A stretch of DNA of 64,000 nucleotides from Bryoerythrophyllum caledonicum. Its lineage: Eukaryota > Streptophyta > Bryopsida > Pottiales > Pottiaceae. The notes under the pieces are model-generated. The model saw nothing but the letters and a program-made list of their open reading frames with translations, did not search any database and was not told where the DNA came from. The DNA lies in assembly GCA_963971425.1 (NCBI GenBank), contig OZ020523.1, positions 9,110,867 to 9,174,866 of the forward strand, given 5' to 3'. Both the position numbers and the translations under genes were made by a program. Positions 4,381 to 38,019 of the stretch are shown one piece after another. The first letter of the stretch is position 1. The number at the start of each line of letters is the position of its first letter.

Positions 4381-4789
4381 GAAAATTGCTGAAGTAGATG
4401 GATGTCTACTTCTGTTGGACATTGCTGATGTGGCAAATAGGTGATGACTTGGATTGTATTCCAGTAATTCCTTAGTAATACATTCGGCACAAATCACTGT
4501 GTCACTAAAATATTACTTGGTGTAGTGATATATTTTATAACTAAAAAATAATTTGGGAATACTTTTTAGAAAGTTGCTGACGTAGATGGATGTCTACTTT
4601 TGTTGGACATTGCTGATGTGGCAAATAGGTGATGACTTGGATTATATTCCAGTAATTCCTTAGTAATACATTCGGCACAAATCACTCCATCACTAAAATA
4701 TTACTTGGTGAAGTAATATATTTTATAACTAACTTGAGGATACTTTTTAGAAAGTTGCTGACGTAGATGGATATCTACTTAGTCGCCAC
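4381..4789. repeat. ~185-bp tandem repeat inside the CACTA element
   Basis: Units start at 4381, 4569 and 4750 and share GATGGATGTCTACTT and GCTGATGTGGCAAATAGGTG. The third copy is cut short at 4789, exactly where a nested insertion appears to begin. Confidence 0.7.
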
Positions 4790-5406
4790 TACACTAATGA
4801 TGTTCATTAGTGTTCGCAACACTATTTACGAACTTAAACTCTAAATGTCAATTACCGTACTAATGTAACAACATTAAATGTCAATTTAAACACTAATTGT
4901 CAATTTCTGTAGCTTTTGCCGTTATTACATTTTAACATATTGACATTTAGTGTTGGTTATGTAACAATATCATATGCCACATTTCATTGCAAGTCACCCA
5001 AATCTCGCCACATGTCAAAAGCAAACCTTCCATGTTGGGCTGATTTTTTCAAGGTTGAATTTTCAAATGATGATTTCGGGGGCAATTTTTGTCCAATTTG
5101 AGAGTTTCTGGTGCCTATCTAAATTGATTTGAAAAGACACTTCCAATGGCACCTTACCCATCTTCAAATTCGTCTAAAATAAAAAGTTATAGCGAATATT
5201 TTTGGGCAGATTTCTTGAGTTTTGGTTGAAAGTTTGAGGAGGCATATCTTTATCAATTTTGCACCAATTCTGTCGAGTGAGGTGACCAACTTATGTGTTT
5301 TTTTAAGGAGATTCCATCGGTATATGGTAAATCTTCTAATTCGTCGTGATGCAAAAGTTATGAGCAATTTTGTTAGGCTGATTTTTTTACATTAAAATTA
5401 CTACCA
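4790..5406. mobile_element. Probable nested insertion with a 15-bp target duplication
   Basis: CTACTTAGTCGCCAC occurs at 4775-4789 and again at 5407-5421, bracketing a 617-bp AT-rich segment that interrupts the CACTA internal repeat. The left end starts with a perfect small inverted repeat (4791-4800 pairs with 4804-4813). No coding region or poly(A) end is seen. The class is unclear; duplications of this length are commonest for non-LTR or SINE-type insertions. Confidence 0.5.
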
Positions 5407-8088: not shown

Positions 8089-9039
8089 TTAATCCCTAAA
8101 GGATCAAGTGTCCAAAATGGGCTTTTTGAAAGTTCGGAAAAGTTCCTATGGTGTCAATTTCCACCATTTCTCTTTGAAATTTTTTCTATAGAAAGGCATT
8201 ACGAAGACTTTAGTGGGAAAACAATTTTTACCTAAATTGGACATTTGATCAAAACAATTTAGGGTTTTGAATTTCAAATGGAGAGAGCAGGCAAGTCGAG
8301 CACGTCCAAAAACTTTTGCTAAGACACTCTGTTGAATGTGAGATTTTCAGTACTTGCAAGTAATAAAATTTCCCTTGATGTTGTCAAAATAAGTTCTTGT
8401 TTTTGGCGAAAAATAGCATACCAACCCAAGTCAAACATTTCACACATTGTCAGTCGGTGTTGGATAAGGTACCAAAAAAACTTCTTGTTTTTCAATTAAA
8501 ACCTAGATAATTTTTTATATTTCACTTTTCATTTTTTCTACAACATTATGTGGTGTAAACCTTCTTATTGACGATTTGGATTACCAATCTAAAACATATT
8601 AAGTTCACAAAAAATGACACTCTGAATTAACAACTTCCAAACTTCCACTCCTTGCATAGTTGTTTTGAATATGCTACACCCATTCTCTACCTCTGAAAAT
8701 TGGTGTACACGGAACTAACATCATGCTTAACAAGATGGTTATGGATTTAGACCTTCTGTACTACAAAATACTGACACCAAGTGAAGTCAAAGTCTGCTGA
8801 TCCATTGCATGCAGGGAACAAAATGAACCATTTGCTTGACTTCAAACACTAAAATTTTTCAATCCGTGCGGTCAAAGTTTATGAATTTTTTTGAGTATGT
8901 TATTGAATAAGTCTTAATTGAGATTCTACGGTCAAAAGTAGAGATAAAAGTTTTTGTTTCCTTTTTTGTTCATTGCGCTGGAATCCAACAATTTTGAAGT
9001 GTTTTTGGTGTAAAACTGTCATTGTATCTTCAGGGTTAA
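8089..9039. mobile_element. TTAA-bounded foldback-family element
   Basis: It begins TTAATCCCTAAAGG at 8089 and ends CAGGGTTAA at 9039, matching the TTAA + CCCYTAAA termini of the other copies in this window. Its second half is closely related to 61670-62408. It is non-coding. TTAA at both ends recalls the target preference of piggyBac-type elements. Confidence 0.6.
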
Positions 9040-12200: not shown

Positions 12201-12448
12201 GGGAGCCATCTGGGGAGAGCCATAGTTGGGTTGAGAAAGATGCATGCATTTTTTCATGGATAGACTCTCCGGAAAGAACCATGTCTGGAGCCAGCAGGTG
12301 GAGAAAGCGCAATGTATTTGGAGTGCAGGTTGAAAGCAAGATTCGCATTCTTCAATCGGCAAAGGCTCACATACTACAATATATTGCAATGCAAACCGAA
12401 GCTATCGATGACGACCGTTTGCAAGCAGTCCTAAATTCTAAGGAGTAG
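9252..12448 (+). pseudogene. Decayed DUF7869-type protein gene (DDE-transposase-like)
   Basis: The 9633-10664 block gives an N-terminal part with clustered Cys residues and the conserved end PHVQVPPFSRFS. The 10649-12448 block gives the DUF7869-like core: IVDGMDQ, QADNCTYENKN, then GHTHEDIDQRFS, an acidic spacing that resembles a DDE triad. The two parts belong to one protein. Near 10599 the frame must change by one base to continue RFS into K-C-x2-C-x4-C, and that frame then meets a TGA at 10637. A TAG at 9621 also interrupts the upstream frame, although it may lie in a tiny intron. No ATG is obvious before 9318. Members of this family are numerous and functionally uncharacterised; mobility is an inference. 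Confidence 0.7.
9594..9644 (+). other. Candidate 51-nt intron removing an in-frame TAG
   Basis: CTTG|GTATGT at 9593/9594 is a consensus donor, and CTACGTGTAG ends at 9644. Removing these 51 bases (a multiple of three) keeps the frame and deletes the TAG at 9621-9623. The intron would be very short for a plant, so a plain nonsense mutation remains possible. Confidence 0.35.
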
Positions 12449-14733: not shown

Positions 14734-17700
14734 TTAACCCATGAGAGATAGCCTATCTACAATGTCATCAAAACTAGGTCTCTTTGAAGGCTCGCCTTCC
14801 CAACAACTAACAATCACATCCTTGATTGTATGATGCAAAGAGTTTGGCAATACAGGCCTTCCTCCAAGTAAAACGATGTCATAATTCTTTGGATTCTCGC
14901 CTTCGAATGGGATCCGTCCTGTCACAAGCTCGTAGCACGTCATGCCATAGCTATACACATCACATTCCTTCGTGAATTTGATCTCCCTAAAGGTTCTATA
15001 GGTTCTATTCTTCAGGTGAATGAGAATCTCTGGTGCTCTCCAAAATCCACTTCCCCGCACCCATAAACTACCATAATCACATACTGTCACTTTAAATGCG
15101 CCATCTAGTTTTGGAAGATGAGGGCCTTCCACAAGAACATTTGCAGATTTAATGTCTCTATGCAAGACTGGTGGTGATAAACTGTGCAAGGTCTTCATGT
15201 CTTTTGCAATCCCAAGCATCATTGCTAAGCTTTGGACCTCAGTGAAAGGAGGGTCCTCTGCTCCATTCTCACTTTTATTTCTTTTGCGATTTTCCTTCAT
15301 GTGTAAATCCATTAACATTCGCAAATCTCCCCACTTCCTCTCCATCACAATTCCAAATGAGCCTCCAATAGAGCCTTGGACTCTACTCTCTCTTAACAAC
15401 GTGCCACCTTTGATTAAAGACAACGGCGACTGATCATGGAAACCACTTCGAAATGCTATAAGGATTCCAACGTCAAATTGCCCCTCAAAGTCTTCGAAAA
15501 TAATTTCGGTACCCCAATAGAGCTTCACAACGAGTCCCCCACGAGCTCCAAAAAGTTCCGCTTCTGCTCCTTCACTAATTTTGTCTTCCAAAACCAAATC
15601 ATCCATGTTTTGAAGGAAGCATGGACCACATCGGTCTAAATTATGAGTGATTCTTTCATCTTGCTCATGCTCAAGCATCTCTTCAAAAAGCTTACGCAAC
15701 TCACAAGACTTGTTTTCCTCGTCCTCTAATGAATCTACAAATGGGTCTAGTTCATCCTCAATCCACCCATGCATGCGACCACGAATACGAAGAGAAATTT
15801 CATCTGCAGAAGAAAAGCTCTCATCTCCAGAAGAACTATTGTCTCCAGGAAAAGAACTCTCATGATTTTCTTCATTGTTTTCATGAGGCCGACGTAAATC
15901 AAGAGTTTGTTTTGCCTCGAGACCTAGGAATCATCAATACAACTCTAAGCATATCAATTATGGCATAATTATAATAATTGTCTTACTATGTTTCAAGATC
16001 TCTATAACCTCTTGGCAAAGATGTGCGATGTTCAACAAAATAGTGAAAACGAATGGTGTGAGAAGAGAAACTTACCAGTTATCAGAAGTGAATACTTGAT
16101 ATGCCTCAACTCCTTACAAATGACACCAAAAGAGGGCCGTACATTCACATCATTGCTCCAACATCTTTCAATCAAATCCTTCAACTTCTCCGGACACCAT
16201 TCTGGTAGCATTGGACGCTCGCCTCCTAAGATCAGGTCACCAAGTTTTTGCTTCTCAGAAAATGGTTGTTTTCCAGTCAAGATCTCAAAACAAAGCATTG
16301 CAAAGCTATGAGTGTCACATTTATACGGATGTTTTTTCATCACCCCACAATATGGCAGCTCCAAAAGTTCATAATGTTTCTTCTCTGCATTTTTCTTATT
16401 GCATGAGAACAACATCATCTCTGGAGCCATGTATCGAACAGTTCCCTGCATTGGAGTCATTGGTTGGCCTCCTTCCACAATTTTGGCTGCCCCAAAATCA
16501 CCGACTTTTACTTGCACAAACTCTGTTCTCCTCACATGTCTTGAGAAGATGTTCTGAGGTTTCAAATCTCGGTGCACAATACTCGACTCATGTGTATAAT
16601 GCATGCCTGTTCCAACTTGAAGCATGATGTCAACCGCTACGAGTATGGGGAATGGAAATATACGTCCTCGCTTCATTCTTTTGCCAATCAAGTCAAAGAG
16701 GTTTCCTTCCATTAAATCCATGAGAAGAGTGGTCTTAGTGTGGTCTTCATCTTCATTTCCATAACAGAACAAAAATGTGACATTAGAATGAGATAGCCTT
16801 CCTTGAATCAGCTTCTCCCTTTGAGAGCGTTCATCGGTTCCATATATCACCTTCCTCGCAACATCGATTGATTTATACCATATTCCACGATGCACAACAC
16901 CGCCTGCGCCACTTCCCAGTGCTCCAATTTGTGGCACACTTCCCACGTCTTGGTCACAATATCCCTCTTCATCCGAACTCGGCTTCAATGCTGCAAGCAG
17001 ACGTTTACCACGCACACAATCCATATAGCTTGACTCACTTGATTGACACAAAGCTTCCACCCTTTCCAACAGCGCTCTCTTATCACCTTTAACTTTTTGT
17101 TTAACAATTTCACCTTCACGATTGGCCAATTCGTCGATTCCCAACGATGATAACATGTTCTTCTTGCGTCCTCCCACGTTTGAAAAGACAAGTATGCATA
17201 TCTCCAAGTCGAAACCTATTGAGGAAACATGCTCCGAAGCATTGAGCATGCCCAAGGCAGCTTGAGTCCATGAAGTCTTACAACACTCTTGGATGAAGCT
17301 TTGAACCAATTCAGCCGATGCATAAAGCTGTTTGCAAGCATCGAGGAACCTTGCCATATCTTCTGAAGAACAAGATGTCTCAGTGTATCTTCCATCAATA
17401 AATGGCACCAAAGATGATTGTGCACATTTAACAGCCAGTTCCAGTTTATCTCCGAGATAATTACACTGCCCACAATAAAACTGCGGTGGCTTGGAACAGC
17501 TTGCAGAAGTCGTCTGTCGAGCTTGCTCCATAATCTTTTCTATGAGCTCTAGATACCTCTTTACCTCCTCCCCATCACGTTGTATCTCCTCCCCATCACG
17601 TTGTATCTCCTCCCCATCACGTTGTATCTCCTCCCCATCACGTTGTATCTCCTCCCCATCACGTTGTATCTCCTCCCCATCACGTTGTATCTCCTCCCCA

Positions 17701-17912
17701 TCACGTTGTATCTCCTCCCCATCACGTTGTATCTCCTCCCCATCACGTTGTATCTCCTCCCCATCACGTTGTATCTCCTCCCCATCACGTTGTATCTCCT
17801 CCCCATCACGTTGTATCTCCTCCCCATCACGTTGTATCTCCGATGTATCTTTAGATAATGTTAAAACCAAGCTCGAGTTAGTTATCAGTGAAGACAAACA
17901 TGTGAACGACAT
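14734..17912 (-). CDS. Tandem protein kinase (TKL-like), two kinase domains, two exons
   Basis: Exons are 17912-16076 and 15923-14734. The intron (152 nt) has donor GTAAG and acceptor CCTAG, and phases agree (G|GT), giving a ~1,008-aa protein. A Ser/Leu-rich start is followed by 13 identical heptads (IQRDGEE), then a helical region. Kinase 1 (from ~residue 325) has GALGSGAGGVV, the ARK lysine, HRDLKPQN, GDFG and MAPE. After an acidic, Ser-rich linker, kinase 2 (from ~residue 730) has a degenerate glycine loop, a VVK lysine, HRDIKSAN, CDYG in place of DFG, and RAPE. The start was chosen as the first ATG; the longer frame begins at a non-ATG codon. Tandem kinases in other plants act in immune signalling, but the role here is unknown. 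Either half could be mistaken for a separate gene; the matching splice phase argues for one. Confidence 0.85.
17571..17850 (-). repeat. 13 near-perfect copies of a 21-bp coding repeat
   Basis: The + strand unit is CTCCTCCCCATCACGTTGTAT, repeated 13 times with no differences seen. It encodes the heptad IQRDGEE in the tandem kinase. The perfect identity implies recent expansion. Because the unit is a multiple of three and stop-free, several other frames are also open here. Confidence 0.95.
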
Positions 17913-21954: not shown

Positions 21955-22197
21955 CCCCTAGAAGATTAACTTTGCCTAAACCGATTTCTATTCCTATGTG
22001 GGATTTTGTGCAGCCCGGGATTTTGCCCGTGAGGGATTTTAGTAGTGAGGTCCCGTCTAATGTAGCATTCTGTGGGGAGAGGGTTGTTCAACTGTATACG
22101 TTTGAAAAATGTGCGGGTAGTACATAATAGATGATGATGAAACTTGCCTCATTGAGGTAGTTATGTTATATCCAAAGAATAAAGTCTCAGTGACATG
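21951..22197. mobile_element. Left part of a TTAA element split by the LINE
   Basis: It begins TTAACCCCTAG. The bases 22130-22197 match, as reverse complement, the copies at 57240-57290 and 37950-38010 (GTCAC...ACCTCAATGAGG). The alignment breaks exactly at the LINE target site and resumes at 37182. Confidence 0.65.
22185..22197. repeat. Left 13-bp target-site duplication of the LINE
   Basis: TCTCAGTGACATG here is repeated at 37169-37181. Confidence 0.8.
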
Positions 22198-22696
22198 GAA
22201 TCACTCAATTGAGCCCCTTCGGAGACAATGAAGGCTGAGTGAGCTCCGTATTTTCTGGTGAGGGGGAGTGTGGGACTTAGTCTCAAATCAAGCACCATAG
22301 GCCACAAGTAGTGCTGGACCTTGTTGGGAGCCCCTATTTTGCATTTGATTTGGTTCCGAAGGTAGGCTTAGGAAGCAGGCTGTGTTGGAAAGGCTCACAA
22401 GCTCCAGATCTGAGGTTTAGTGAGGAGATCGAGGTGCTTTGAAGTAGGATTTGTGAAGAGTTTAGATCTGAAAGTTTGGGGACTCGTGTTGGACACCGAT
22501 CTGTCTTCCAAAGTACCAACATTCCTACTGCCCTGATCTGAGAGAGTTCCCAGATCTGCAAGCCGCCCGCAAGCCCCATACCCTCCGAACCAGCGTCACA
22601 ACATACAACATTGGAGGGAGGACTAGCAAACTCGGGCTCAAGAGCTACTGCGCACTACATCAGGCTATTTCTTACCCATACACCTTATTTTCATTA

Positions 22697-24784
22697 TTGC
22701 TTATCCTAGTATTAGTGTGTCTTGCTTGCTTTTTTCTAGTACACCTTAAACTCACACTACTACCAATAGAATGCTCACTAGTACACACATGTAGCCACGA
22801 AAGACACAACACTCTCACATACATAGAACTTGCTGATAGCTACAACAACAGTACACAAATAACGAAATACCGTCTTGTTAGAAACAAACCCACTGAGCAG
22901 GAGCCACATAGACACAGTAACACTAACAAAGCACACATCGACACAGATACGCTTGATAGGGTACTAACCAGAAAGTTAGATCCGCCACATGAAAATACAT
23001 TGCGCAGCACCAACACAAGATCCAACAACGTATTGATACAACGTAACAGAGACACCAACTTGCAAGACCTGAAGGACCAGATCAGAGAGCAACTACTGAA
23101 GGCCGTGACAAGATCCAACACCGAACTTCTGCGACGCGACACCAACTTACTGAACCCAAAGGCCCTGATCACCAAACCGCCGCGAAGTGACTCCATCTTG
23201 CTGGACTTGAAGGCCCAGATCACCGAACTGCTGATACGAGACACCAACTTGCTGGACCTGAAAATCCAGATCACCGAACTGCTGCGACGCGACCCCAAAT
23301 CGCTGGACAACAAGGCCCAGACTGAGAGCGTAAGATTCAGTTGCAGGGGCAGCCGACCTCAACTGCATCAACAAAACACAAATAAGCGAAACAACGACCA
23401 CCACCAACAGACCAAGACAAAAATTCTAGGTAAGTTTTCTAACTCCTACAATCATTGTTGCTCACAAATTCAGTATAAAAAACATAAAACACACCATAAC
23501 CACAAGGATAATAGCACTGAATTAATAGTAAAATCCATAGTAGTAGCCTATAAAATCATAAACCAAACAAGTAGCTGCTACATTCGCATTAAATGTAAAA
23601 ACTCCAACAAAACCGTAGTAAAAGAAAATAAAAAACATACACAACTAGTAGAGAAAGCGAGGCAGTACATACATGTGCATCGAAAAAACATTGTTTGGTT
23701 CCAAAGCTGCAGCCAGAATCTAGGCGACCCGCGGAGGAAAGCACACGCAACGAACGCAGAATCAAGGCGACAGGAACAGAAGTGCCGAAATCAACGTGCA
23801 AGGATAGAGGAGAAAAGTAATGAACACTGCAGTCAGCCCAAAGCAAAGGATGTGAACAAGACCCACTCAAGAAAAGGCTGCGCAAACCCAAGAGAAGACC
23901 AACACAAGGCGGAGCCGCAAGAAAAAACCACACACAACAAATCTGTCAAGACAAGAAAGGAGTTAGCACGGTGCGAACCCGAGACTCAAGCAGCAAGTCC
24001 AAGCACAAGAACCCGACAGAAGGTGTCCAAGCAACAGCAAGAGCAGGGACGAGTAATAGCAAAACTGAGAGAACCGACAACAGAGACACAGCAGAGGAGA
24101 GAGTCGACACAAAAGATAGAGATCAGGACAATAGACACGAGGAACGCAACACCCGAGACCCAAGCAAAGGGACAGCACACGCAGAGCAAGGTACACGCAA
24201 GGAACGCAGCGCCCAAGACCCAGAAGAAGAGACAGCACACGCGGAGGAAGGTACTCGCAAGGAAGGACTTCGTACCTGCGAAACAAGGACCAACATACAG
24301 AAAGCACCCAGGAGATCAAGACAAAGAGCAGCGCGAAGAGGAAGACTCATCTCGCACGCAGGGAAAGGCAGCACATGCGACTTGTAAAAGGAGACACAAA
24401 GAAGCAGGCGATACACAAGACGACGTGCAACGCCGAACCCTAAGAAGGCCAGCCCCCACACACCGCTATTCGTACACTGCGCAGCCACCACAGAGCGCCA
24501 GCCCTCACACTCCGCTAGCCCACACTTCCCGTAGCCCAAAAACAGGCTCCGCCAGCCATCATACTACAACGACTACACCAACTGTCACGAAGGTAAGTCC
24601 AAGAACCCTCTCCCTTCAGAATTCGGTACTAACACCCCTTTGCTATTCTTTTACAGCCCAAATGTCAGATAGCGCCAAGAAAGACTGGGCCATGAACATG
24701 GACATTGAATCACCAGACAGTACCCCCCCCCAGAGCCAATACAAGGGCGGCCAACAGAGAAGAATGCGAGGCCAGCAGCAGTAA
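22697..24784 (+). CDS. Open frame in the LINE 5' region, 695 codons, doubtful
   Basis: It starts with a hydrophobic stretch and is then charged and low in complexity. Residues ~115-210 hold degenerate repeats of RDTNLLDLKAQITELL type (23040-23320). No domain is recognised. Consensus splice signals occur inside it: a donor GTAAGTCC after ACGAAG at ~24591 and an acceptor TTCTTTTACAG at ~24658, just before the ORF1 ATG. The region may therefore be a 5' leader rather than protein-coding. The frame overlaps the ORF1 reading frame by 80 bases. Confidence 0.25.
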   Translation: MLILVLVCLACFFLVHLKLTLLPIECSLVHTCSHERHNTLTYIELADSYNNSTQITKYRLVRNKPTEQEPHRHSNTNKAHIDTDTLDRVLTRKLDPPHENTLRSTNTRSNNVLIQRNRDTNLQDLKDQIREQLLKAVTRSNTELLRRDTNLLNPKALITKPPRSDSILLDLKAQITELLIRDTNLLDLKIQITELLRRDPKSLDNKAQTESVRFSCRGSRPQLHQQNTNKRNNDHHQQTKTKILGKFSNSYNHCCSQIQYKKHKTHHNHKDNSTELIVKSIVVAYKIINQTSSCYIRIKCKNSNKTVVKENKKHTQLVEKARQYIHVHRKNIVWFQSCSQNLGDPRRKAHATNAESRRQEQKCRNQRARIEEKSNEHCSQPKAKDVNKTHSRKGCANPREDQHKAEPQEKTTHNKSVKTRKELARCEPETQAASPSTRTRQKVSKQQQEQGRVIAKLREPTTETQQRRESTQKIEIRTIDTRNATPETQAKGQHTQSKVHARNAAPKTQKKRQHTRRKVLARKDFVPAKQGPTYRKHPGDQDKEQREEEDSSRTQGKAAHATCKRRHKEAGDTQDDVQRRTLRRPAPTHRYSYTAQPPQSASPHTPLAHTSRSPKTGSASHHTTTTTPTVTKVSPRTLSLQNSVLTPLCYSFTAQMSDSAKKDWAMNMDIESPDSTPPQSQYKGGQQRRMRGQQQ

Positions 24785-26285
24785 GAAGAGCAAGGTCTCC
24801 CTTAACCAAGAAGGTAATAAAACACAAGAACCTGATTTCACCAAATTCAAACTTTGGTTGGGCTTCCCAGCCATGGAGGCATTGGCCGTGGAAGAAGGGG
24901 CTGAAGAACTATTCAGTGGAGAATCTGTGATTGACATGATCACACGAGGACTCAAGAAGGAAGAGGCTATGGAGGTGGCCAAAGCAAGGATAGCCTTCCC
25001 CCGTATTCCTCAAATGCTCTACCCCATGACTAGAGTTGGAGTGGAAGGACAACACTACAATATTACGCAAGTGCCATTTGACATCAAAACTAGTGAGTTT
25101 TCTGGACTCTCTCTCAATTTCCATGTTGCCATCTTCTTCGAAACCCCTAAAAATCCTCTCATGCATGATGATGTTAGGAAAATGGTAATGGCAAGACTCA
25201 TGAAGATGGACATTGTTTTAGGGATAGACCTCATTGACCCAATTGCTATCCAATGCCTAAGCATAAAAAATGGGAAAACTAAGGGGGTATGGGCGGGGTG
25301 TATCAAATTGCACCTTCTAAAACCAGAAATTGATGGTTTAATGCTACTCAAAGGCCTTAGGCCTTTTATTCTAACAATTGATGGAGAATGTGTAGTGGGG
25401 AAAGTTTGCAAAACTTACCATGGAATTGCCAATGGCTCTAACCTATCCGTGAAAATCAAGAGTGAGTCATTGGTGGGGATATCCGCACAAGTCCTTTTCA
25501 AAGAAGCACTTGGAAATAGCTTCCACCGGAGGCAAGAGTTTGAAATAACGGGAGTACAAAAAGTCACCGAAGACTCACATGCCTTCATCATCGCCACCAC
25601 ACCTCAGCAAGTGAAAAAGATTTTGTTGCATCATATCACCTTGCGTGGAGAGGTTGTGCATGCAAGACAAGTCCTTTCCACCAAAGGACCCAAAGGTATT
25701 ATCGAATCCAAAGCTAGGAAAGATGCATTGACACTCACCTTATCACCTCTTCCCATTTGTTTGAATGTTGAAAGCACAACACATGAAATCTATAAAATCA
25801 TGGGTGGAGCTAATGTACGTTCGATTTGGTTTCACCGAGACAATGGCACTAACCACAATGGTAGTGCCAACGTCTTATGCTCTAACGTCATTGTCTATAG
25901 AACGTTTGTGAAGAAAACACATCTCATTGGTGGGAACTACGTTGACTTCTCACCCCACCGAAGGAGCTTGGAAGGACTTGAGCCTCCAACGGAAGAGCAA
26001 GTGAAGTCATTTGGTTTTGACGACATCAACACCGCGATTGTCAACACTATAGCTACATACAACATGCAAGAGAAGAACGACAACATCACCAAGAGAGATA
26101 TGGTGGAACTCTTGGAAGAAAACAACAAGAAGATGAGGCAAGAGAATATGGACTACGCCAACAAACTACATGGTGAATTGAAGGCTCAAATGGAAGAGAT
26201 TCAAGAGTCCATGTTTGCCACACTTGAAGGCATGAGAGCCTTTACGAGCAAAATCAACAAACCAAGACTTGAGCCAAACATGTGA
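24662..26285 (+). CDS. LINE ORF1-like protein with C-terminal coiled coil, frameshifted
   Basis: The long frame ending at 26285 (526 codons) has no ATG at its start. The only good ATG, 24662 (MSDSAKKDW), is in the next frame and would join it if one base were missing from the nine-C tract at 24723-24731. After the join come a basic NLS-like SSSKKSK, a ~400-residue globular part without a recognised motif, and a charged helical end (residues ~470-520, EENNKKMRQENMDYANK) likely to be a coiled coil. Position directly upstream of ORF2 suits a nucleic-acid-binding ORF1 protein; RNA binding is inferred. The frame was called ORF1 from position and layout, not from a recognised family. Confidence 0.6.
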
Positions 26286-26563
26286 ACTGAAAAGACCACA
26301 TAGTAATACGTATATATCGTATAGAATACCACAATATACAAATAGATCATTTATACAATACTAGGAATAAATATATAGAAGTATACAAATATATAAATAC
26401 AACATATATAAGGTGTATTGAATACTATACTAAAAACCGTACTAGCTATTGCAATATATACATTGCACAACACTGTATTTTTTACTCCATTAAATATAAA
26501 TACTATACAAAATATTATGATAAATACACAAGTGATACCATATTCAAACAACAATACAAAGAC

Positions 26564-29500
26564 TTGGCGATACAATACAAATTTATTTGGCGAGACTTTA
26601 AATACAAAATACAACATTATATTAGGCCTCACAAATATTTATACCGTATGAAAAGAAACAAAAAAATACACGTACACCGTAAACCGCACATGATACTACA
26701 GTACACAACATCTAGCACACAATATAATAAAAATAATGATACAAATAATGGTACGTACGCTAGTACATATACTAATAGAAATAAAGATACATACGGTGGC
26801 ACATATAATGATACGACTATTGGTAAGTATACTGGTACACATACCGACATGAATACTGGTACGTACATTTGTACGAATACTGGTACGTACATTGGTATGA
26901 ATACTGATACATATATCAATAAAAACACTGGTACTAATATCGACAAGTATACTGATACGTATACTGAAACATACACGAATACGAATAAAAATACTAAAAT
27001 GAATAATGGCAAGAATATTGATACGAGCATTGACACAAATAGTGACAAAAATAGTGACAAAAAATACAATGAAAATATCAAGAATATGATTGAGATGAAG
27101 AAAATAATAAGTTCGATTGGTAAACAAAATACATCTATAAAGTATAACAACAAAAACAAATATACTCAAAATCAAAAAGCAAGCAACAAACTCGAAGATC
27201 ACAAAATAAAAGAAAGGACAAACACAAAAAGTAAGAAATTTCTTAAACCTAGTAAAGAAATAAAAAACACAAAGAGAAATAAAAAAATTGGAACTTACAT
27301 GAAATACATATGGAAAACAAAGATTAGAAATGATTCAAAACAAATAAATACTAAGAAGAATATTAAAAAACAAAGAAAATCTACAAGAGAAGATATAACT
27401 AAGAAAGGAAATAAAATAAAACTAAAGAAAGGAAATATATCAAAGAATGTAGATAGAACAAAAATAAGAAAAGGTAATAAAATGAAAACAAACAAAAAAA
27501 TAAATGTAAAGGATAAAATTAATCAAAGGAATAGACCAAATATACAAACAAAAAACGAAAGTATCAAAACCAAAATAAAAAATAAAAGGAATAAGAGTAG
27601 AGATGGAATTAGAATAAATAATAAAAGGAAAGAGAAAATAAGTACCACAACTACGTATAACAAAAAAGGAAAAAATAATAATGAAAACAATAAAAGAAAT
27701 AAGGGTAGAAGGGAATCTAAACCCAAAAACCATCAGAAGATAAGGAATATTAAAATGACTGAAAATAGAAAAGTCAAGGAGAGTAAAAAGAGATATTATA
27801 TATTAAATAGGAAGAAGATAGATATTTATAAAATTTCAAAGGTTTCAAATAGACTAAGTAATATTAAAAATATAAAGAATAAATCGGAGAGGATATATAA
27901 GAAGAAAATAAAGGGTAAGGCAGAAAACCACTATCATAAGAAAACATATAACAAGAACATAACAACAAACAACAGTACTAAAAATAGAATATGCTTCTTA
28001 AGAAAATCAAAAATAAACGATGGAAGAATAACCAAATTAGTAATGAGAATTAATTATAATAAGAATTCAAATATGAATAAAATAGCTAAAAACAGCAGTA
28101 CTAAAAATAGAATCTGCTTCTTAAGAAAATAAAAAATAAGCGATGGAAGAATAACCAAATTAGTAATGAGAATTAATTATAAGAAGAATTTAAATATGAA
28201 TAAAATAGCTAAAAACAACAGTACTAAGAATAGAATATGCTTCTTAACAAAATCAAAAATAAGCGATGGAAGAATAACCATAGTAGTAATGAGAATTAAT
28301 GATAATAAGAATACAAATATGAATAAAATAGCTAAAAACAACAGTACTATAAATAGAATATGCTTCTTAAGAAAATTAAAAATAAACGATGGAAGAATAA
28401 GCAAATTAGTAATGAGAAATAATTATAATAAGAATACAAATATGAATAAAATAGTTATAAATAGCAGTAGTAAAAATAGAATATACTTATATGGTAAAGT
28501 AACAAAATTAATAATGGGAATTAATTATAATAGGAATACAAATACAAATAAAATAGCTATAAATAACAAGAGTAAAAATAGAATATACTTCCTAAGAAAA
28601 TCAAAAATAAGGGATGGAAAATTAACCAAAATAGAATTAAGAATTAATTATAATGAGAATACAAAGATTAAGAACACAGCTATAAACAGCAAGACTAAAA
28701 ATAGAATACGCTTACTAAGAAAATCAAAAATAATAAAAATAGAAGGGTGGATTTATGTCTCGCCGGCCGGAAGGGCGCCGATGGCGCCAAAAATAGAATT
28801 ATTAAAAATAAAAACTCTAAAAATAGAAATTCTAATGACAGTAAGAATATATACGAATTTGATTGAAATAAATATCAATATATTTTTTCTGTATACTGGT
28901 ACGAATCTGTATAACTATCTATATAATGGTACGTATACAGATACGTATACTGTTGCATATACTAATACAAATTTTGATACTTACACAAATACCAATATGA
29001 ATTTTGGTACGTATACTAGTACGTACCAAAACACGAATACTATAAAGGATACTGATTCAAACACCGAGACAAAATCCGAGGTATATACTAATACGAACAT
29101 ACGAATAAATAATAATACGAAAACAAATATAAATACATATACACACACAAAGACAACAACACACCATCAACATAACACATACAGAGAAGAATGCCGGTCT
29201 CCGAAGAAGGCCGGCGTGAATCGTAACACATACATATACATACACACATACAAAAACAAATACACACAATCAAAAAAACACCAAAGTCACATACAAAAAC
29301 AAAAAAACTTTAAACAAAACAAAAAACCCATCTACTACAAACTACTAATATTAATCGGAGGAGACATAGACACTAACCCAGGACCTATGCCGTACGTATT
29401 AAAAAGACACCCCACTTCACACAAAAAGAATGCCAAAACATATTTCATACCAAATACTAATACAAACACCAAAACAAACAATTGTACAAACCACAAAGTA

Positions 29501-29704
29501 TATAATAACACCGCATATGAAAAAAAGGACTTAAAAACCACTTTAAAAACCAACATAAACCCACATACAAATAGTCTTAAACATAAGAGTTACATATATA
29601 CACGGACAAAAACAACCAAGATAAAATACAACCAATCATACATACATCCATATACCACTAAAACAAAAACAACCACAAAAAACACATGGACAAAAAAAAA
29701 CTAA
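26564..29704 (+). CDS. Low-complexity Asn/Thr/Lys-rich frame of the LINE, ending in a 2A-like motif
   Basis: One frame runs through this region with a single TAA at 28130-28132, where repeat comparison suggests TCA was mutated. Residues ~60-160 consist of NTGTY/NTDTY-type units. Then comes a Lys-rich stretch, then about six 126-bp repeats (RICFLRKSKINDGRITKL...). The end carries GGDIDTNPGP and a downstream KRHPTSHKKN segment that is duplicated in ORF2. Openness alone is weak evidence because both strands are open in such composition. The in-frame 2A-like motif near the end is the main reason to believe it is translated. Confidence 0.4.
26700..27060. repeat. Degenerate short repeats (AATACTGGTACGTACATT type)
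   Basis: Units of 12-24 bases built from ACTGGTACGTAC and AATACTGATAC words recur, and similar words return at 28905-29045. In frame they encode the NTGTY-type tract. Confidence 0.7.
27955..28740 (+). repeat. ~126-bp tandem repeats inside the LINE
   Basis: About six imperfect units share AATAGAATATGCTTCTTAAG, AAAATCAAAAATAA.CGATGG and GAATTAATTATAATAAGAAT. They start near 27975, 28100, 28226, 28350 and 28470, with weaker copies to 28740. Each encodes ~42 residues in the same frame. Confidence 0.75.
29333..29480 (+). repeat. Direct duplication carrying the 2A-like motif, copy 1 of 2
   Basis: The second copy is at 29842-29989, 509 bases downstream. Both encode Y(Y/H)KLL, the 2A-like motif, then LKRHPTSHKKNAK and YFIPNT. 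They lie in different reading frames relative to the window (frame 2 and frame 1). Confidence 0.8.
29342..29386 (+). other. 2A-like ribosome-skipping motif, copy 1
   Basis: It encodes LLILIGGDIDTNPGP, close to the 2A consensus D-(V/I)-E-x-N-P-G-P with Asp in place of Glu, preceded by a hydrophobic stretch as in functional 2A peptides. It sits in frame in the low-complexity ORF. The predicted skip would be between Gly (29381-29383) and Pro (29384-29386). The Asp substitution may weaken it. Confidence 0.6.
29692..29700 (+). other. Nine-A tract at the low-complexity ORF / ORF2 junction
   Basis: The upstream frame reads ACA AAA AAA AAC TAA; a -1 slip on A AAA AAA leads straight into ORF2. Alternatively ORF2 begins at the ATG at 29686 by re-initiation. 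The sequence fits both and does not decide between them. Confidence 0.4.
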
Positions 29705-29850
29705 CGACAAAAACAACTACACCTACTATAAAAATAAATAAACCCACAACTCACACACAAAATACAAACATCCACCTACCCCCAAACCAACAAGCCATTA
29801 ATAACACAACAAAGCCTTTGAAATACACCACTAAACATATATACCACAAA

Positions 29851-29895
29851 CTTCTACTACTTCTAGGAGGAGACATTGAAACCAACCCGGGACCC
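29851..29895 (+). other. 2A-like ribosome-skipping motif, copy 2 (canonical)
   Basis: It encodes LLLLLGGDIETNPGP, matching the D-(V/I)-E-x-N-P-G-P consensus exactly, at ORF2 residues 56-70. Skipping would release a ~69-residue leader and leave the enzyme starting with Pro. 2A-like motifs near the N terminus are known in some trypanosome and animal non-LTR elements. Confidence 0.75.
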
Positions 29896-32565
29896 ATGCC
29901 CAATATACTAAAAAGACATCCTACATCACATAAGAAAAATGCCAAAATCTACTTTATACCTAATACCATAAAACTCCAACCAGAATATGAACACATTGCA
30001 AAACCCTTCGCACCACTCCTAAAAAACACACACACATTACACCACATACACAACACTTCCCACCCAAACATTGCCCAATACATACAACAAAAAAATACGC
30101 ATCCACCACCCCACATCTTATATGCACTAATAATCACTACTCATCCAAACATAGATGAATGTAACCAACTTCTAAATCCACAAAATTTGAACACAATTAC
30201 ATGGACTAATACACTCCTACAAACCTTACTAACCTTACAAAACCCACCAGAACGACACATTTACACTCCACACCCCTATACTGAATTCCTAGTAGACAAC
30301 CAAAATATTATAAACCATGAGAACTCAATACATAAAAGACTATACGACTTCTTACATAGTCAAGACATACCACCCTCAAATGATATAATAAAACTAAAAT
30401 TCCCTTACCTCCCTAACAACCTCATAAATGAATCACTAAAATGCCTAGACCCTATACCAGAATACACCCACCCACCCCCACCTCTTCCCTACATCCCTCC
30501 TCAAAACCAAAATCAAAACATTAGACCAAACCAAGAAAATACATACATAATCACATGGAATGCCTCCTCACTAAACACTGCCCTTCCTAGCTTACAAACT
30601 CTAGTCGCAAACACAGACACACCACCGGCTCTTATAGTTATACAAGAAACAAAACTAACCGCCACAAAGTCTACAAAATATATACAAAATATATTTCAAG
30701 ACTATAAACTCATCTTTAACAATACACATGCACTTACAAGATGCATGCAACAAAGGAGACCATACACACCGGGCCGCGGAGGCCTCCTTACATTAATACA
30801 CAAAAAATATACATTCCCCGGCAACATCAACAAAATCCCTACCCCAATGCACATATCACCATACATTCAAATAATTAAAATCACTAATCACCTACTACAA
30901 TCGTGGTTAATCTTTCACATGTATATGCCATCCCATCCCGAAGATACTAGATTTCTCTTAGATATACAAAACACTATTACAACCCATATTAATAATCATC
31001 CCAATCATACATACCTATTATGTGGAGACTTCAATAGAGACATAGCGCTAATTGGCCGCCAAAATGGAAACCATCACACCCCCCCTCAAAACATTGATTA
31101 CCAATGGCGACGCTTCACAGAAAACTTAAACTTCACTTACATCAATACCGATACACAATTCTCTAGACAAGGTGGCTACAATTATAGTGATTGGAGTCTA
31201 ATAGATGGTTTCTATATAAATACAAATAACAACACACAATACACCTCCACATCAAACAAAGATATTATTCTCAATTCCGACCACTCACCCGTACAACTGC
31301 ACATCCCAAATAATACACTAATTAGTAGAACTCCCACAATCCCAAACAAAGACACTATACGCATACTCAACCCCATCCCAAAAACCAACATAGAAAAATT
31401 CAACACAAAATTCTTCGAAGAAAACACCGTACAAATAGACTCCCTCATAAACACTCTTGAAATCAATAGTCAATTAACACAAGCACAATGGCAAGAAGCA
31501 TGCCACTCTCTAGACAAACTCATCAATAAAATCTCTGATACACTAGAACAAACTTGTAGAGCACACCCAATACCCCAAATGACAAACAGAACCTCTCAAC
31601 AAGGCGGGTATCTACCCCGCAAACTTTCTAAAACCTGGAAACAACACTTAACCACATACCATACCATACGTAAAACCATTAGAATTGTAAAAAACAACCC
31701 TCAATGGCGTAACCACCCCATACACAACGAACTACTAAATATACAACACATCCAAATCCCTACCCCGCCGCCTCCGGACCTTCCCCACGATACATGGATA
31801 AAAGATATCGCGATAATTGCAAAAAATGCCAACATACAAGCCCGGAAAATAATCACAAAATACACAAAAGAAAACATTAAAAAAGCCATCTCAAAATACA
31901 GACAACTATACGAAATCAGCCCCAAAAAAATTAACAAAAAAGTCTTTAAAAACCTTGAATCCCCACCAATGGATTGTATCAAAGATCAATATAATAATAT
32001 TCTAACTAGCCCCGAAGACATTGCGAATGAAATATTCAACCAACAAACAAAAACCAATAGACCAACAGTACCAACATGTAATTACCAGCCACAACATACA
32101 ATAGAATGCACATGTGCAATACGCCAATACCCTTGGCACGACCTGGACGGATATACCCTTGACAAACGGGGCGAACCAGAAATTCCACTACATAAATACC
32201 TCAACAGAGCCACATACGACACATGCCTCCAAAATCTTGGAAATAATAAAGCCCCAGGCCCAGACCGCATACCAAACTCAATACTCAAAAACATGCCTCC
32301 AAGATTTCATAAACTACTATTCCTATTCTTTTCTCACTGCTATAAACAAAAACAAATACCAAATTCATGGAAAACAAGTGCAACAATTCTACTATACAAG
32401 AAAGGCGACCCATCCATGCTACCCAATCATAGACCAATTGCACTAGCTAACACAATATATAAGTTTTTTACCAGTACACTCACCCACATACTATCCTCAT
32501 ACGGCGAAAAATTCAAAATCCTACATGATAGTCAAGAAGGATTTAGAGCGGAGAGAAGTACCGCA

Positions 32566-32568
32566 TGA
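32566..32568 (+). other. Premature TGA inside the reverse transcriptase
   Basis: It lies between FRAERSTA and QIQTTIAALEDAK, in the conserved RT block before the DFKNAF motif. The frame continues intact on both sides. A CGA-to-TGA change would explain it. Confidence 0.75.
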
Positions 32569-35136
32569 CAAATACAAACTACAATAGCCGCATTAGAAGA
32601 CGCAAAATTTACTAACCAAGATATATACATACTATACGTGGACTTCAAAAATGCCTTTGGCTCAATTGATCATGCCAGACTTCTAGCAATAATGTCAGAC
32701 CTTGGCTACCCAAAAGAGGCAACTACACTTGTTGGAAACATCTATTCCCAATCATCTACTTGCTATATCGGCGAACACTTTGGGAAAACAAAACCTATAC
32801 CCATCCAAAGAGGAACTATACAAGGGGACACCCTCAGCCCACACCTATTTATTATATTTTTAGAACCACTACTTAGATGGCTAGAAAGAGGCAATAATGG
32901 ATATACTTTCGGTACATCACAAGTCACAATAAACTCCGCCGCATACGCAGATGACCTAGCCACCATAACTAACAAAATCAAATCAATCCAAATACAACTC
33001 CATAAAATTGATAGATATTGTAAATGGGCTGGCATGGATGTGGGAGTTCCAAAATGTGCCGCTACCGGTTGCCCAAACAAATCTAAATTGAACCCTACCA
33101 CTTTCAAAGCCCTAATGCAAACCTCTAACATCAACTACCGCAACCAACCAATCCCTATACTACACCAAAACGAACCATACATATACCTGGGTACAAATCT
33201 TGTTCCCTCACTAAAATGGAAAATCCAAATCCACACTACAACCACAAAGCTCATCAAACAATGCAAAGAACTAACAACATGCCCAGCCACCATGAAACAA
33301 AAAATAAAAATGGTTGATACCGTACTACGCCCAGGTGTGGCATACAGTTTCTACGGTGTACCATACTCTATGCCAGCTATCAAAAAACTTGATAAAAAAA
33401 TAATAGCCATACAAAAAACCATATGTGGATTACCAAAATGTATGTCAAACGCAATAACCCAACTACCACATAACCTATTTGGACTTGAAGCTTTCTCCCT
33501 CAAAAACGCATACCTCCGATGTATAGGCGAACAACTACAAAATGCTCTAAACAATAAAGGAAGACTTGGGAAAATATATAATGGATTAACTCACTATGTC
33601 CTTGCCCAATATGGTGGCGCTGAAAACATACCGAGAATTAAAAAAAGTGACTGCATAAGATCACCAATAACACGAACATTCTTCTTATTAACACATATAG
33701 CTAAAGCCCACCTTAAAAGTACGCTCCCGAACTTCCTCACTAATCCTACAACACTAGAAATACTATGGCGCCAAGAAACATTAAATCATAACACACTCAA
33801 TGCCCAACTCTCCCAAAAGCTTCTACAAAAACTCCTCACAAAAAATATTTTTGAACTAAACCAAATTACCTTACCTAACGGTACACACATCATGAACAAT
33901 GAGGACTTCAAAACCTACCACTTCACCCCATCTAAACTAATAAAGAGTGCCCTAAGTGTTGCTAAACAACTATTTTGCCACATAACATGCCCCACTATAT
34001 GTCATACGCCTTGCAACATACACCCATACTCTCATACACTTAAAGATCCATTCATCACCCTCAACAATAACATCATCCCAAGAAATATTCCCACACCAAC
34101 CAATCCCCCTAACCCTCCACATACATACCACCCCCGCCCCCCAACATACATCCCCAAAAATCCTACCACATACCCCATTAATAATATCATAAACCATAAA
34201 CATATCCAACACACAGACACAAATAACATACAAAATACCTACACAAAATATCTATGCCAATGGCAACACAATGATAATACATACAATAAATGGCTCCCCC
34301 AAAGAGACCTTTTTCCACGGCATGACACCAATACCTCCACACATAACACTGAAAAATTAAAACAATACTACCAAAAGATCCAAAACAAAATATACTCAGA
34401 TATCATCCTTGCCCACCATCCACAAGAACAATCCTCAGACTCAAGGTCCGTAACGCCACCCCTAATTATCCCACTCTTAAACATCTACACAACAGAATGC
34501 AACCCCGAAAATGATATCCTTACATCCTCAAACACAATTCAAATAGATAACAATCAAGCACATCTATACGAAGAAAACGGCCGACATTTACACACCATAC
34601 CCATTACCCGGCTCCAATGGTTATGGAACCAATATCATACAAAATTACAATCCCCTACAAACATTGAACCAACAACCCAACCCTTTGAAACCGAACTAAT
34701 ATGGCTTTACCAAAGATATAAATATCGAATACCAAAAACTGACCCCCTCAAAAATGCGCATTACACAATACCCACCCCCATCTTAGACTCACTGATATCA
34801 TCCTTTAACATCGAACACTCATACTTTTCCTCCCCGATCACATGTCCTACCAAACTAAATAAATTCTACTCACCGTACGAAAGAGACAAAATATTTGGAT
34901 CCCTAGGCAAGGCCTTTGAACACAAATGGATCGGAAATGGAATAGCTCACCCCCACAACGAGGAAGACATAGAACAAGCCATACATTGGGCTAGACTTGC
35001 CGCCAAACACGATCCAAATAACACAAAAACAATCATCGTCACACCGAACAACAATTGGTACCAAAACAACAACCAACATTCAAACCCATTCCCAGATTCC
35101 CACATCATTGCATTATTCGAAGCAGACACAATACCA

Positions 35137-35139
35137 TAA
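35137..35139 (+). other. Premature TAA between RT and RNase H
   Basis: The reading frame is the same before and after this codon and continues into the RNase H domain at 35461, so this is a point nonsense change, not the end of ORF2. Confidence 0.7.
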
Positions 35140-36924
35140 GAAGAACCTAATATCCCACCTGAGCTAAAAAAACCCCGAATAGAGCCATCTACATTACAAA
35201 TACTATGCGTCCATCATCAAAATCAAAACCTGGGCTCCCTAGAACAACTTGCGGAACTTACCTCCATAACAGACAATCTAGACATACAACGACCATACAC
35301 AAAACCGGCCCCACCAACACCCATACAAACCCCCGTAAACAAAAGTAAAAAATGGTCAAAATTAAACTATGACAACAACACATTAAACTATTCCGTCATA
35401 CCTCCCCCTCTCCCAGACTACCCAACTCATACCACACCAAAATTTAACCCCGCATACAGTTATTACACCGACGGCTCCTTTAAACCACCGGAACAAATTA
35501 GCCCGGGCTCTTGGCGTAGAGAAAAAGCTGGCTATGGCATATATAATTCTACCAAAGAAATTAAACTAGCCAAAAGACTCCATGGACTACAAAATATCCT
35601 CAGAGCAGAACTCATGGCCATTCACAAAACACTACAAATCATCACAACAAAATACAAAAATGAACCTGCACATATATTCACCAATTGTATAAATGCACTC
35701 TACCTACTAAACACTCAAATAACACACCCAACCCTTCACAACAGTCACCCCGACCAAACCATACTAACATCAATGGTACAAATGTTACAAAAACGTACAC
35801 AAATCACAACCCTTCACAAAGTCAGAGCCCATGCCAACATTGATGGCAACGAACAAGCAGACAAACTTGCAAAAGAAGGCCAAGAAAAAATACACAAAAA
35901 CGCCAAAGACCCTCACGAACATGCTCATGCCACCCCATACTACTTTCAAAAAGAAGATTGGCCTTCGAAAGAAGATACCCCCGACAAAGGCCCAATTAGA
36001 TTTCTGGGCAAATATCTCAAAAAACAAGACCTCTGCAACAACCTGGATACAATCTCAAAAAATATTCCTAACATAGAAAAATGGACTAACAATAACGACA
36101 TAGACAATGAACTCTCTACAAACTTTTGGAAAAACCCCATCATCTCAGACTCACAAATAACGTGCCTCATCAAATTCCGTACGGGTCAGTACATGGGAAA
36201 CGCTCGCAAACAACTCTTCTTTGGAATAGAAAGATTCCCATCCATAACATGCCCCATATGCCCCTCAACGGACCCCGACACATGGCTACATGTGCTACTC
36301 AAATGCCAAAACCACCACATACACTCTCTAATTGTTAAAAGACATAACAAAGCGGTATGGGAAGTCCGAAAACTAATCACCTCCTACAATAAATCGAGAT
36401 GTTTCATACTTATGAACGCCGGCACTTTTAATAGCAATCCACAAGAAAACACGGTCCCCCCATGGCTACTTCCATGCTCATGTATGACCCAAAGATGTCA
36501 TTGCAACGCTAGGCTCAAACCGGACATTCTTTGTGTCAAAGGTTTACCATACAACGACCCACCACCCGAGAACATCAACCAAGACTACACCATTCAAGTC
36601 ATCGAATTTACATATTGCAACGATAGATTCTCCCCGGAAACAATACAAAACAAAATAGATAAATACCAACCCCTCATAGACGACATCATTGCCCTCGGCT
36701 GGAATGTGGACCCCCTTATTGTTATCACATCCGGCGCTCGTGCCACCACCTTTATTCCATCTATGAAAACTCTCGAAGATACCTTCAAGATACCCATTGA
36801 TACAATTAAAACTACCTTTAAAAATATCAACACCATCGCTATTCAACATGCCATGTCTATTTTACTGCATAAACGCAAAATCGAGAACAACCAAGTCCTC
36901 CCTGATAGGCAAGACCCCCCTTAG

Positions 36925-37168
36925 GAACTTCGCCACTCTGTCTCTTCCTGATTGGCTGCCTGTTTGGTTTTGTTTTTTGTTGTTTAGCTAGTTTGGTCGT
37001 GGTTGGTCGTTGTTGGTTGGTTTCTGGCTACTCGTTACATAGTGTCTACCCTCGAAAGGGGGAAGTAGTTCCAGTTCGCTAATTCCTTGTCCAGTGGGCA
37101 TGGTCTTAGCAATGGAACGAAGAGACACTTTATTCACGCCGGTTTCCTTCGGGAACCAGCGTTCTTCC
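36925..37168 (+). other. LINE 3' UTR with terminal hairpin
   Basis: Two stem-loops are visible: CCCT-CGAA-AGGG at 37049-37060, and a long stem at 37136-37162 capped by TTCG. The latter ends only six bases before the target duplication. There is no poly(A) tail. Confidence 0.6.
37136..37162 (+). other. UUCG-capped terminal stem-loop of the LINE
   Basis: ACGC and GGTTTCC pair with GGAACC and GCGT around the tetraloop TTCG, with one bulged T and small internal mismatches. LINEs of the stringent type use a 3' stem-loop for reverse transcriptase recognition; that role here is inferred from position. Confidence 0.55.
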
Positions 37169-37181
37169 TCTCAGTGACATG
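37169..37181. repeat. Right 13-bp target-site duplication of the LINE
   Basis: TCTCAGTGACATG repeats the left flank at 22185-22197. Confidence 0.8.
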
Positions 37182-37723
37182 ATGGATCTCAATGTAGTGT
37201 ATTTTAGAAACGTCTAGCTTTTGCTCTAAATCTGCATTCAAGTCATTCAAATGAAACTTTTCAAATTTGAGCCCAACTAATGAAACAAAGCTTATGAAGT
37301 CTAGTTTCCATTCCAATAAAAAAAATTTGAATGATACATAAAGTTGAATAAGTCATTGCAATTTGTACTTTGGGCCTATAACCATGGTTGATCAATTTAC
37401 TAATTTTAGCTGAATACAAAAGTGTCATTGACATCCCAAGTTTTGGCACTGTAATGTACACCTTTGGTGAAATTTTCAGAAAACTTAAGCCTACTTTGGA
37501 TTTGATTTGAGTTTTCTTCACTTTTTCTTCAGAAATTCTCAATAGATATTAATTTTCACCAAAAAAACTGCAATTTTTGTGACATAAGCAAGACATGTGA
37601 TCTCATCTATGAAAAAATAAAATAAAATAAATTCCACCTATATTTAATGAAGAAATAGATCAAACAATGGAATGGAAATTGGGATTGATGCCACGGTCTT
37701 AAGCTTTGTCCATTAGGGGTTAA
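37182..37723. mobile_element. Right part of the TTAA element split by the LINE
   Basis: It ends GTCCATTAGGGGTTAA at 37723, the inverted form of the left terminus at 21951. Its sequence matches, as reverse complement, 56935-57210. Joined to 21951-22197 it restores one ~0.8-kb foldback-family element. Confidence 0.65.
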
Positions 37724-37805
37724 TAGATGACGTCAATTCCTTAAAATTCACTAAAGATCTGCATTACAGTGCAAAACTTATTCAATTTCATGTATTTTTA
37801 AAATT

Positions 37806-38011
37806 TTGAAATTGGAATGGAAACTAGACTTCATAAGCTTCGTTTCATTAGTTGGACTCCAATTCAAAACTTATAAATTGAATAACTCAAATTCAGGTTT
37901 AGAGCAAAAGCTAGAAGTTTCTAAAATACACTACATTGGGATCCATGTCACAAAGATTTTCTTCTCTAGATTAAACATGACTACCTCAATGAAGCAAGTT
38001 TCACTATCATC
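37806..38011. repeat. Inverted second copy of the adjoining repeat
   Basis: 37810-37960 is the reverse complement of 37180-37320, with few differences (both contain TAGAGCAAAAGCTAGA and GGAAACTAGACTTCATAAGC or their complements). The repeat continues past the MITE at 38020-38297 to about 38430. Confidence 0.75.
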
Positions 38012-38019
38012 TATTACCT

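Follow-up and report, generated by a model that had tools for sequence, protein, structure and literature searches.

The stretch of DNA analysed here (the window: 64,000 nt, positions 9,110,867-9,174,866 of the forward strand of contig OZ020523.1 in the Bryoerythrophyllum caledonicum assembly GCA_963971425.1) carries a long interspersed nuclear element (LINE) of about 15 kb. We consider it highly probable that the window holds a damaged member of a young family of giant plant LINEs, present in many copies and with a Dualen/RandI-like build, in which the second open reading frame (ORF2) is preceded by a StopGo (2A) motif. Copies of about 15 kb with a common 5′ start, a common TTC-tailed 3′ end and target-site duplications of 10-13 bp occur in the genome (437 Mb in 894 contigs, where the window is C11:9110867-9174866), confirming the finding of an earlier note on this stretch, that of a ~15-kb LINE bracketed by a target duplication. 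The length is notable; of greater interest are the set of domains, the conserved StopGo motif, the swapping of modules and the variable leaders at the 5′ end. Feature coordinates are collected in Table 1.

Insertion and borders of the window copy

The 13-mer TCTCAGTGACATG occurs twice in the window (a mean of 0.00 times over 100 dinucleotide shuffles), and its two occurrences, identical over exactly 13 bases, enclose an insert of 14,971 bp (22198-37168). When the flanks are rejoined with one duplication removed, they align over about 245 bp, at 83% identity, with the second arm of a foldback element (37776-38016) read in reverse complement, so the insertion split one foldback arm. Because that other arm lacks one ATG present at the insertion junction, the empty site is near-exact, without a perfect match. 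The element has the features by which a LINE is recognized: a reverse transcriptase (RT), target-site duplications, no long terminal repeats (no terminal direct repeat of at least 25 nt was found in it) and a 3′ end, with a tail, that is common to its copies.

The duplication around 14,971 bp and the 3′ border at the point where the foldback element resumes had both been described in the earlier note, and both are borne out, the latter minus the one ATG. Its borders hold, with one refinement at the 5′ end: 22198-22226 (~29 nt) lies outside the shared element, which starts at about 22227. With the shared 5′ border moved inward by these 29 nt, the earlier reading of the element and its borders is supported.

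Other copies in the genome

In the genome, 40 of 1,885 first-look candidates were scored for a 3′ query (the last 269 bp of the element), and 40 of 453 for a 5′ query (the first 503 bp). The 41 places listed in the 3′ search comprise the window, 39 near-full-query matches at 97-98% and one 125-bp fragment at 96%. All 40 other scored matches stop at query base 267-269 of 269. Among 30 loci that were cut out, window included, 27 match across the full ~1.77 kb compared and three across 933, 555 and 1,251 bp; four contain another piece of the LINE family. At least two TTC units, and up to 137, form the 3′ end in 29 of the 30 loci, the exception (L011) having one TTC unit followed by a run of T. 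The median is four units over the 27 loci caught by the search pattern, window included (three of the 29 TTC-tailed loci were missed by it; units were counted from the printed ends). Beyond the tail, the flanks differ from copy to copy among the loci read. Two copies, L003 and L011 (C2:27.82 Mb), face each other with their 3′ ends ~1.35 kb apart.

At the 5′ end, query positions 1-18 are left uncovered by all 39 other scored matches, three of which start at position 19 and the others between 25 and 39; identity is 97-98% in five and 83-89% in the other 34. Ten copies (c-numbered here) were extracted with ~18 kb upstream each. Two of them, c09 (contig C3) and c19 (contig C7), were read whole and are collinear with the window from position 22227 through to the 3′ end, at ~96% in the 5′ half and ~98% in the ORF2 half, differing from it in repeat number within the low-complexity stretch. 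They measure ~15.2 kb between copies of a 12-bp duplication of their own, TACATATGACTA, for c09, and 15.4 kb between copies of a 13-bp one, TGGTTGTTGAACG, for c19. A further copy on C3, of which only the ends were read, pairs a 5′ match at 36478129 with a 3′ match at 36463331 (~14.8 kb plus tail) and has a duplication of 11-13 bp, two bases being common to the tail. Upstream parts are diverged in c24 (15.7 kb, 13-bp duplication) and c20 (14.5 kb, 10-12 bp); c04 (10.7 kb) and c06 (10.1 kb), with duplications of 12 and 13 bp, are shorter, and c02 is 5′-truncated. No convincing target duplication was found for c02, c07 or c14.

The earlier note had allowed that other copies might end elsewhere, or that 22198-24660 might belong to a different element. 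The 3′ ends coincide as described, and the 5′ part belongs to the LINE because c09, c19 and the further C3 copy have both ends between their own duplications. A composite, in which an ordinary 7-8 kb LINE (29.2-37.17 kb) and an unrelated upstream element (22.2-29 kb) lie together between the duplications, could explain why several copies are close to the window only from ~29.2 kb on and why c04 and c07 lack a match to the first open reading frame (ORF1). We set it aside as very improbable on the paired ends of these other copies; moreover, a diverged ORF1 stands at the corresponding position in five copies with other upstream parts, and four of the five share the junction motif.

ORF1, the ORF2 leader and the StopGo motif

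In its downstream part, the low-complexity frame that precedes ORF1 is continuous with it in c19 (745 codons) and c09 (836 codons); further upstream, both copies have one stop in this frame. A structure model of ORF1, of moderate quality (Table 1), comprises three beta-alpha-beta-beta-alpha-beta units (residues ~140-237, 248-322 and 343-417) followed by a long C-terminal helix. Its best Foldseek matches are proteins with several RNA recognition motifs (RRMs), such as SFPQ/NONO, at low TM-scores (0.14-0.19 by query length). ORF1 ends in YCAAA[CA]ATGTGA in seven of the eight copies that have it (the exception being c24), three of the seven belonging to one subfamily, and the ORF2 frame opens 9-18 nt before that end in c09, c19, c14, c06, c08 and c20. 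A -1 frameshift may occur at this junction, although the site is not a canonical slippery heptamer.

A long low-complexity leader precedes ORF2 and is represented in the window by two frames (26564-28132 and 28166-29704). GGDIETNPGP stands directly before the ORF2 body, and a second such motif, GGDIDTNPGP, lies 509 bp upstream of the first. DIETNPGP fits the extended consensus (D/G/C/N)(V/I)ExNPGP given in PMC12846837, and its position is conserved. Forty-eight of 69 database relatives hold the block that follows the motif, and in all 40 of these that have at least 12 residues upstream the motif is recognizable, with NPGP intact in 34 (26 of which fit the extended consensus) and one NPGP residue changed in six; of the remaining eight, seven start at the methionine following the motif and one further in. 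Relatives P0052 and P0053 have two motifs, as the window does. In c07, leader, motif and ORF2 form a single open frame of 3,503 codons, the natural start of which is uncertain because an inverted 5′ end overlaps its beginning, and in P0063 ~900 residues stand in frame upstream of the motif. The motif is a predicted site of StopGo activity.

Two further observations concern the leader. An additional 2A-like GGELEINPGP lies near its start in c24 (= L050+L049), at element position 5250. The leaders of P0036, P0039, P0047, P0048 and P0063 have a short basic motif upstream of 2A (SAYRPRHK-like, with several in P0048; RPTGLAT-like in P0063).

The ORF2 body and its affinities

The ORF2 body begins with an apurinic/apyrimidinic (AP) endonuclease (APE), which a match to PF14529 extends to 31293 (22.3 bits, below the cut-off of 27.4). 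The best solved-structure matches to the RT are R2 proteins (1.7e-20 to 1.8e-17); a chain of 8c8j ('RNA-directed DNA polymerase'), which we take to be L1 ORF2p, matches at 1.6e-9. The PCIF1-like domain scores above the PF12237 cut-off in relatives P0001 and P0002 as well. At the position of the PCIF1 catalytic motif, presumably NPPF, these ORF2 proteins have AHPH or AHPN, so PCIF1-like catalysis may have been lost; a structure model of the region was uninformative (mean pLDDT 37). Downstream of the RNase H lies a CCHC finger with an RHN-KPD-E-KY series, which we assume to be the motifs of an R2/Dualen-like restriction-like endonuclease (RLE), an identification made from the motifs themselves.

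APE (PF03372 above its cut-off), RNase H and a short-repeat 3′ tail in place of poly(A) are all found here as in Dualen/RandI elements of Chlamydomonas and relatives, to which the RT and, by motif, a putative RLE add further likeness; we infer that the family is a candidate member of this group. Such a tail characterizes eight of the eight green-algal RandI families tabulated in PMC3747384. The window element differs in its plant host and its length of ~15 kb, and an RRM-type ORF1, a PCIF1-like domain and 2A go unmentioned in the Dualen passages of PMC4640811, PMC3636483, PMC3747384 and PMC8226300.

Other known systems share parts of this build. R2-type elements have similar C-terminal finger-nuclease motifs, and theirs is the RT closest in sequence among solved structures; the window element differs from them in having APE, ORF1 and RNase H, and its 3′ flanks vary between copies. 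Non-LTR retrotransposons bearing 2A include trypanosome L1Tc and animal APE-type elements, and, like the present family, have a canonical D(V/I)ExNPGP-type motif close to where their RT-bearing protein begins. Those are animal and protist elements, whereas the window element is dual-endonuclease-like, has a plant host and a leader of ~1,000 codons, and belongs to a family in which some copies and relatives have two motifs. The animal examples are cited by title in reference passages of PMC4981915 and PMC12846837.

The element might instead be an unusually long plant L1-type LINE, its C-terminal motifs being a zinc-finger tail with no nuclease. Plant L1 elements can have the same APE-RT-RNase H order and an RRM-type ORF1; 8c8j matches the RT, and no library tried gave an RLE match for the C-terminal region. 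A 2022 review (PMC9033089) names L1 and RTE as the land-plant LINE superfamilies. We nevertheless judge an L1 origin unlikely, as the 3′ tail is TTC (29 of 30 loci) and not poly(A), R2 proteins match the RT far better, and the CCHC-RHN-KPD-E motifs are conserved in relatives; the element is also far longer than plant L1 elements and carries extra domains and the StopGo motif. A Dualen/RandI-like build remains our preferred reading.

Module swapping and selection

The ORF2 half is 96.1-98.3% identical to the window at the DNA level in eight of nine long copies, and 250-bp bins from 29.8 kb on are 96-100% identical in c19, c24, c20, c07 and c04. By comparison, ORF1 protein identity to the window runs from 98.6-98.8% (c09, c19) through 76% (c08), 66% (c06), 56% (c20) and 53% (c14) to 34% (c24), and c04 and c07 have no ORF1 match at 1e-10. 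In several related copies the ORF1 module is a different one, and some are shorter. In all five copies of other subfamilies that were profiled, identity changes in a step at 29.0-29.8 kb, around the first 2A motif at 29342, from 82-85% (bin 29042) to 91-94%, 94-97% and then 97-98%.

Between c07 and c24, the ORF2 body has 27/20/72 differences at the first, second and third codon positions, and the corresponding counts for the leader are 59/67/72. The other five pairs likewise have a third-position excess in the body. Gaps in the leader are multiples of three in 2/2 cases in c24, 3/3 in c14, 1/1 in c04, 10/15 in the window and 7/10 in c19. To judge from these counts, the leader is roughly kept open and its residues are nearly free.

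Variable 5′ leaders

A short, variable sequence lies between the left duplication and the conserved 5′ start (AATGAAGGCTGAG...): 29 nt in the window, 20 in c19, 46 in c09 and 23 in the further C3 copy, and, placed by motif, ~29 nt in c20 and ~27 nt in c04. These 5′ leaders are ~20-46 nt long, and mostly different, in all six copies with both a duplication and a conserved 5′ start (window included); c24 and c06, in which that start is not recognizable, were left out of the count. Twelve further 5′ ends were fetched, and the 11 without a known duplication likewise diverge immediately before the conserved start. The one leader searched genome-wide, that of c09, was represented by 43 nt, which occur only at their own locus with up to three mismatches allowed. 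In addition, 12 nt of this leader have a match in the inverted left flank that none of 200 shuffles equalled. No significant local source patch was found for the other four leaders tested (one of five overall). TTGGAGGA (8-10 nt) is common to the leaders or flanks of c04 (8286-8313), c20 (4522-4551) and L062, which may be chance. The sequence upstream of the 5′ start in L053 (1-55) resembles the family's own 3′ UTR, through nested insertion or a template jump.

We read the leaders as filler made at 5′-end joining; they may alternatively be captured RNA, or an older 5′ end that the copies weakly share. Capture of host RNA, whether through cap-snatching of an mRNA 5′ end or through a template jump, would fit the length and variety of the leaders, the sequence preceding L053 and the presence of a PCIF1-like domain, the domain being named for a cap-adjacent methyltransferase. 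The c09 leader argues against it, both in occurring nowhere else and in its match to the inverted flank, and we regard RNA capture as quite unlikely, even though the four leaders without a significant local patch do not favour filler either.

Proposed mechanism

As we picture it, APE would nick the target and target-primed reverse transcription would start at the (UUC)n tail, on an RNA coated by ORF1 through its three RRM-like folds and long helix. ORF2 would be translated as a very long polyprotein, with a disordered leader, StopGo/2A and an APE-RT-PCIF1-like-RNase H-RLE body, the ribosome releasing the leader at StopGo/2A and then continuing into the body. At the 5′ junction, every insertion would acquire its own short filler. 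Because the leader would be released, different ORF1/leader modules could be recombined onto one ORF2 body near 2A, in agreement with the pattern seen among the copies.

Several observations weigh against this account or the reading behind it. The ORF1-like, low-complexity and ORF2 frames described in the earlier note are all present, but ORF2 is not open in this copy: it is broken by TGA (32566-32568) and TAA (35137-35139), plus frame changes. An alternative genetic code is rejected because the two stops are different codons and c07 is open across its whole frame. Q or H replaces the consensus E (DIQ or DIH) in eight of the 34 relatives with intact NPGP, and the lack of an RLE match was noted above. 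Not every leader gap is a multiple of three (in c20, 3/7 are), and ORF2 is not uniformly alike, because c14 dips to 86-87% near 33.5-34.0 kb and the ORF2 half of c06 is only 89% identical to the window. Part of the drop in the leader needs no recombination, because low-complexity sequence turns over fast; that objection does not apply to the ORF1 differences. Finally, the 5′ leaders are not entirely unrelated: the last 11 nt of the C3-copy leader agree with those of the window leader at 8/11 (0 of 464 control positions as good), and 10 nt are common to the c20 and L062 leaders.

Table 1. Features of the element and its insertion site in the window.
Feature	Position	Strand	Basis
Foldback element interrupted by the insertion (arms ~245 bp, 83%)	22125..38016	+	Rejoined flanks
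Left target-site duplication, TCTCAGTGACATG	22185..22197	+	Exact 13-mer; rejoined flanks restore foldback arm
Variable 5′ leader of window copy, 29 nt	22198..22226	+	Start at query 19-39 in 39/39 other scored 5′ matches
Conserved 5′ start (AATGAAGGCTGAG...) and 5′ UTR	22227..22471	+	Same start in c09, c19 and C3 copy
770-codon low-complexity open frame upstream of ORF1	22472..24781	+	Random maximum 282 codons (500 first-order sequences)
ORF1, three RRM-like folds and C-terminal helix	24705..26285	+	20 relatives; model pLDDT 61, pTM 0.42; Foldseek
ORF1 end / ORF2-frame overlap, CCAAACATGTGA	26274..26285	+	YCAAA[CA]ATGTGA in 7/8 ORF1-bearing copies
Low-complexity ORF2 leader frame, interrupted in window copy	26291..29701	+	613- and 523-codon open stretches; null maximum 120
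First 2A/StopGo-like motif (LLILIGGDIDTNPGP)	29342..29386	+	GGDIDTNPGP
ORF2 frame, stops at 32566 and 35137	29686..36924	+	TGA at 32566-32568, TAA at 35137-35139
Second 2A/StopGo motif (LLLLLGGDIETNPGP), directly 5′ of ORF2 body	29851..29895	+	Recognizable in 40/40 relatives reaching here, 34 intact
AP-endonuclease (APE)	30550..31293	+	PF03372 at 30550-31071, 26.3 bits, cut-off 24.5
Reverse transcriptase, AAYADDLA at 32938-32961	32530..33192	+	PF00078 2e-18
Weak chromodomain-like stretch	34246..34314	+	PF00385 E 0.031, below cut-off
PCIF1-like domain	34648..35052	+	PF12237 1.2e-10, 41.7 bits, cut-off 31.1
RNase H	35455..35883	+	PF00075 2.9e-12
CCHC finger and RHN...KPD...E...KY	36250..36678	+	Conserved in P0001 and in the part of P0002 extending here
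3′ UTR, terminal hairpin and short TTC tail	36925..37168	+	At least 2 TTC units in 29/30 loci, window included
Right target-site duplication	37169..37181	+	Exact 13-mer

Other features of the window

The window also contains a TORTIFOLIA1 gene (PF24714 5.6e-81, PF24713 3.2e-31), which points to a plant, and, on the minus strand at 17565-17841, a kinase-like open reading frame with 13 perfect 21-bp repeats encoding EIQRDGE units. Two overlapping frames at 9633-12448, the second with DUF7869 (6.7e-49), possibly represent another mobile element. A tandem repeat lies at 450-1934 (354-bp unit, 4.2 copies, 93% matches) and a minisatellite at 6293-6530 (11-bp unit, 21.6 copies). No structured RNA reached the Rfam gathering threshold in the window, with one weak match (E 0.38) in the element, and no tRNA gene was found.

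Implications

Copies of ~15 kb with both ends recur in this genome, and they would extend to a plant what seems to be the group of dual-endonuclease LINEs, which the literature passages cited here link with green algae. More tentatively, and on less than even chances, we propose that land-plant dual-endonuclease LINEs use StopGo as a plug-in point, combining one ORF2 body with many or no ORF1-leader modules and adding a 5′ leader, possibly captured RNA, at each insertion. A 2026 survey (PMC12846837) reports no evidence of StopGo use by plant viruses. The family places a StopGo motif in a natural plant context and, if our reading is true, would provide a natural StopGo in a plant genome. The variable 5′ leaders offer a direct handle on how a long LINE joins its 5′ end, and a conserved 2A motif near the point of module swapping may be a testable reason why LINEs keep it.

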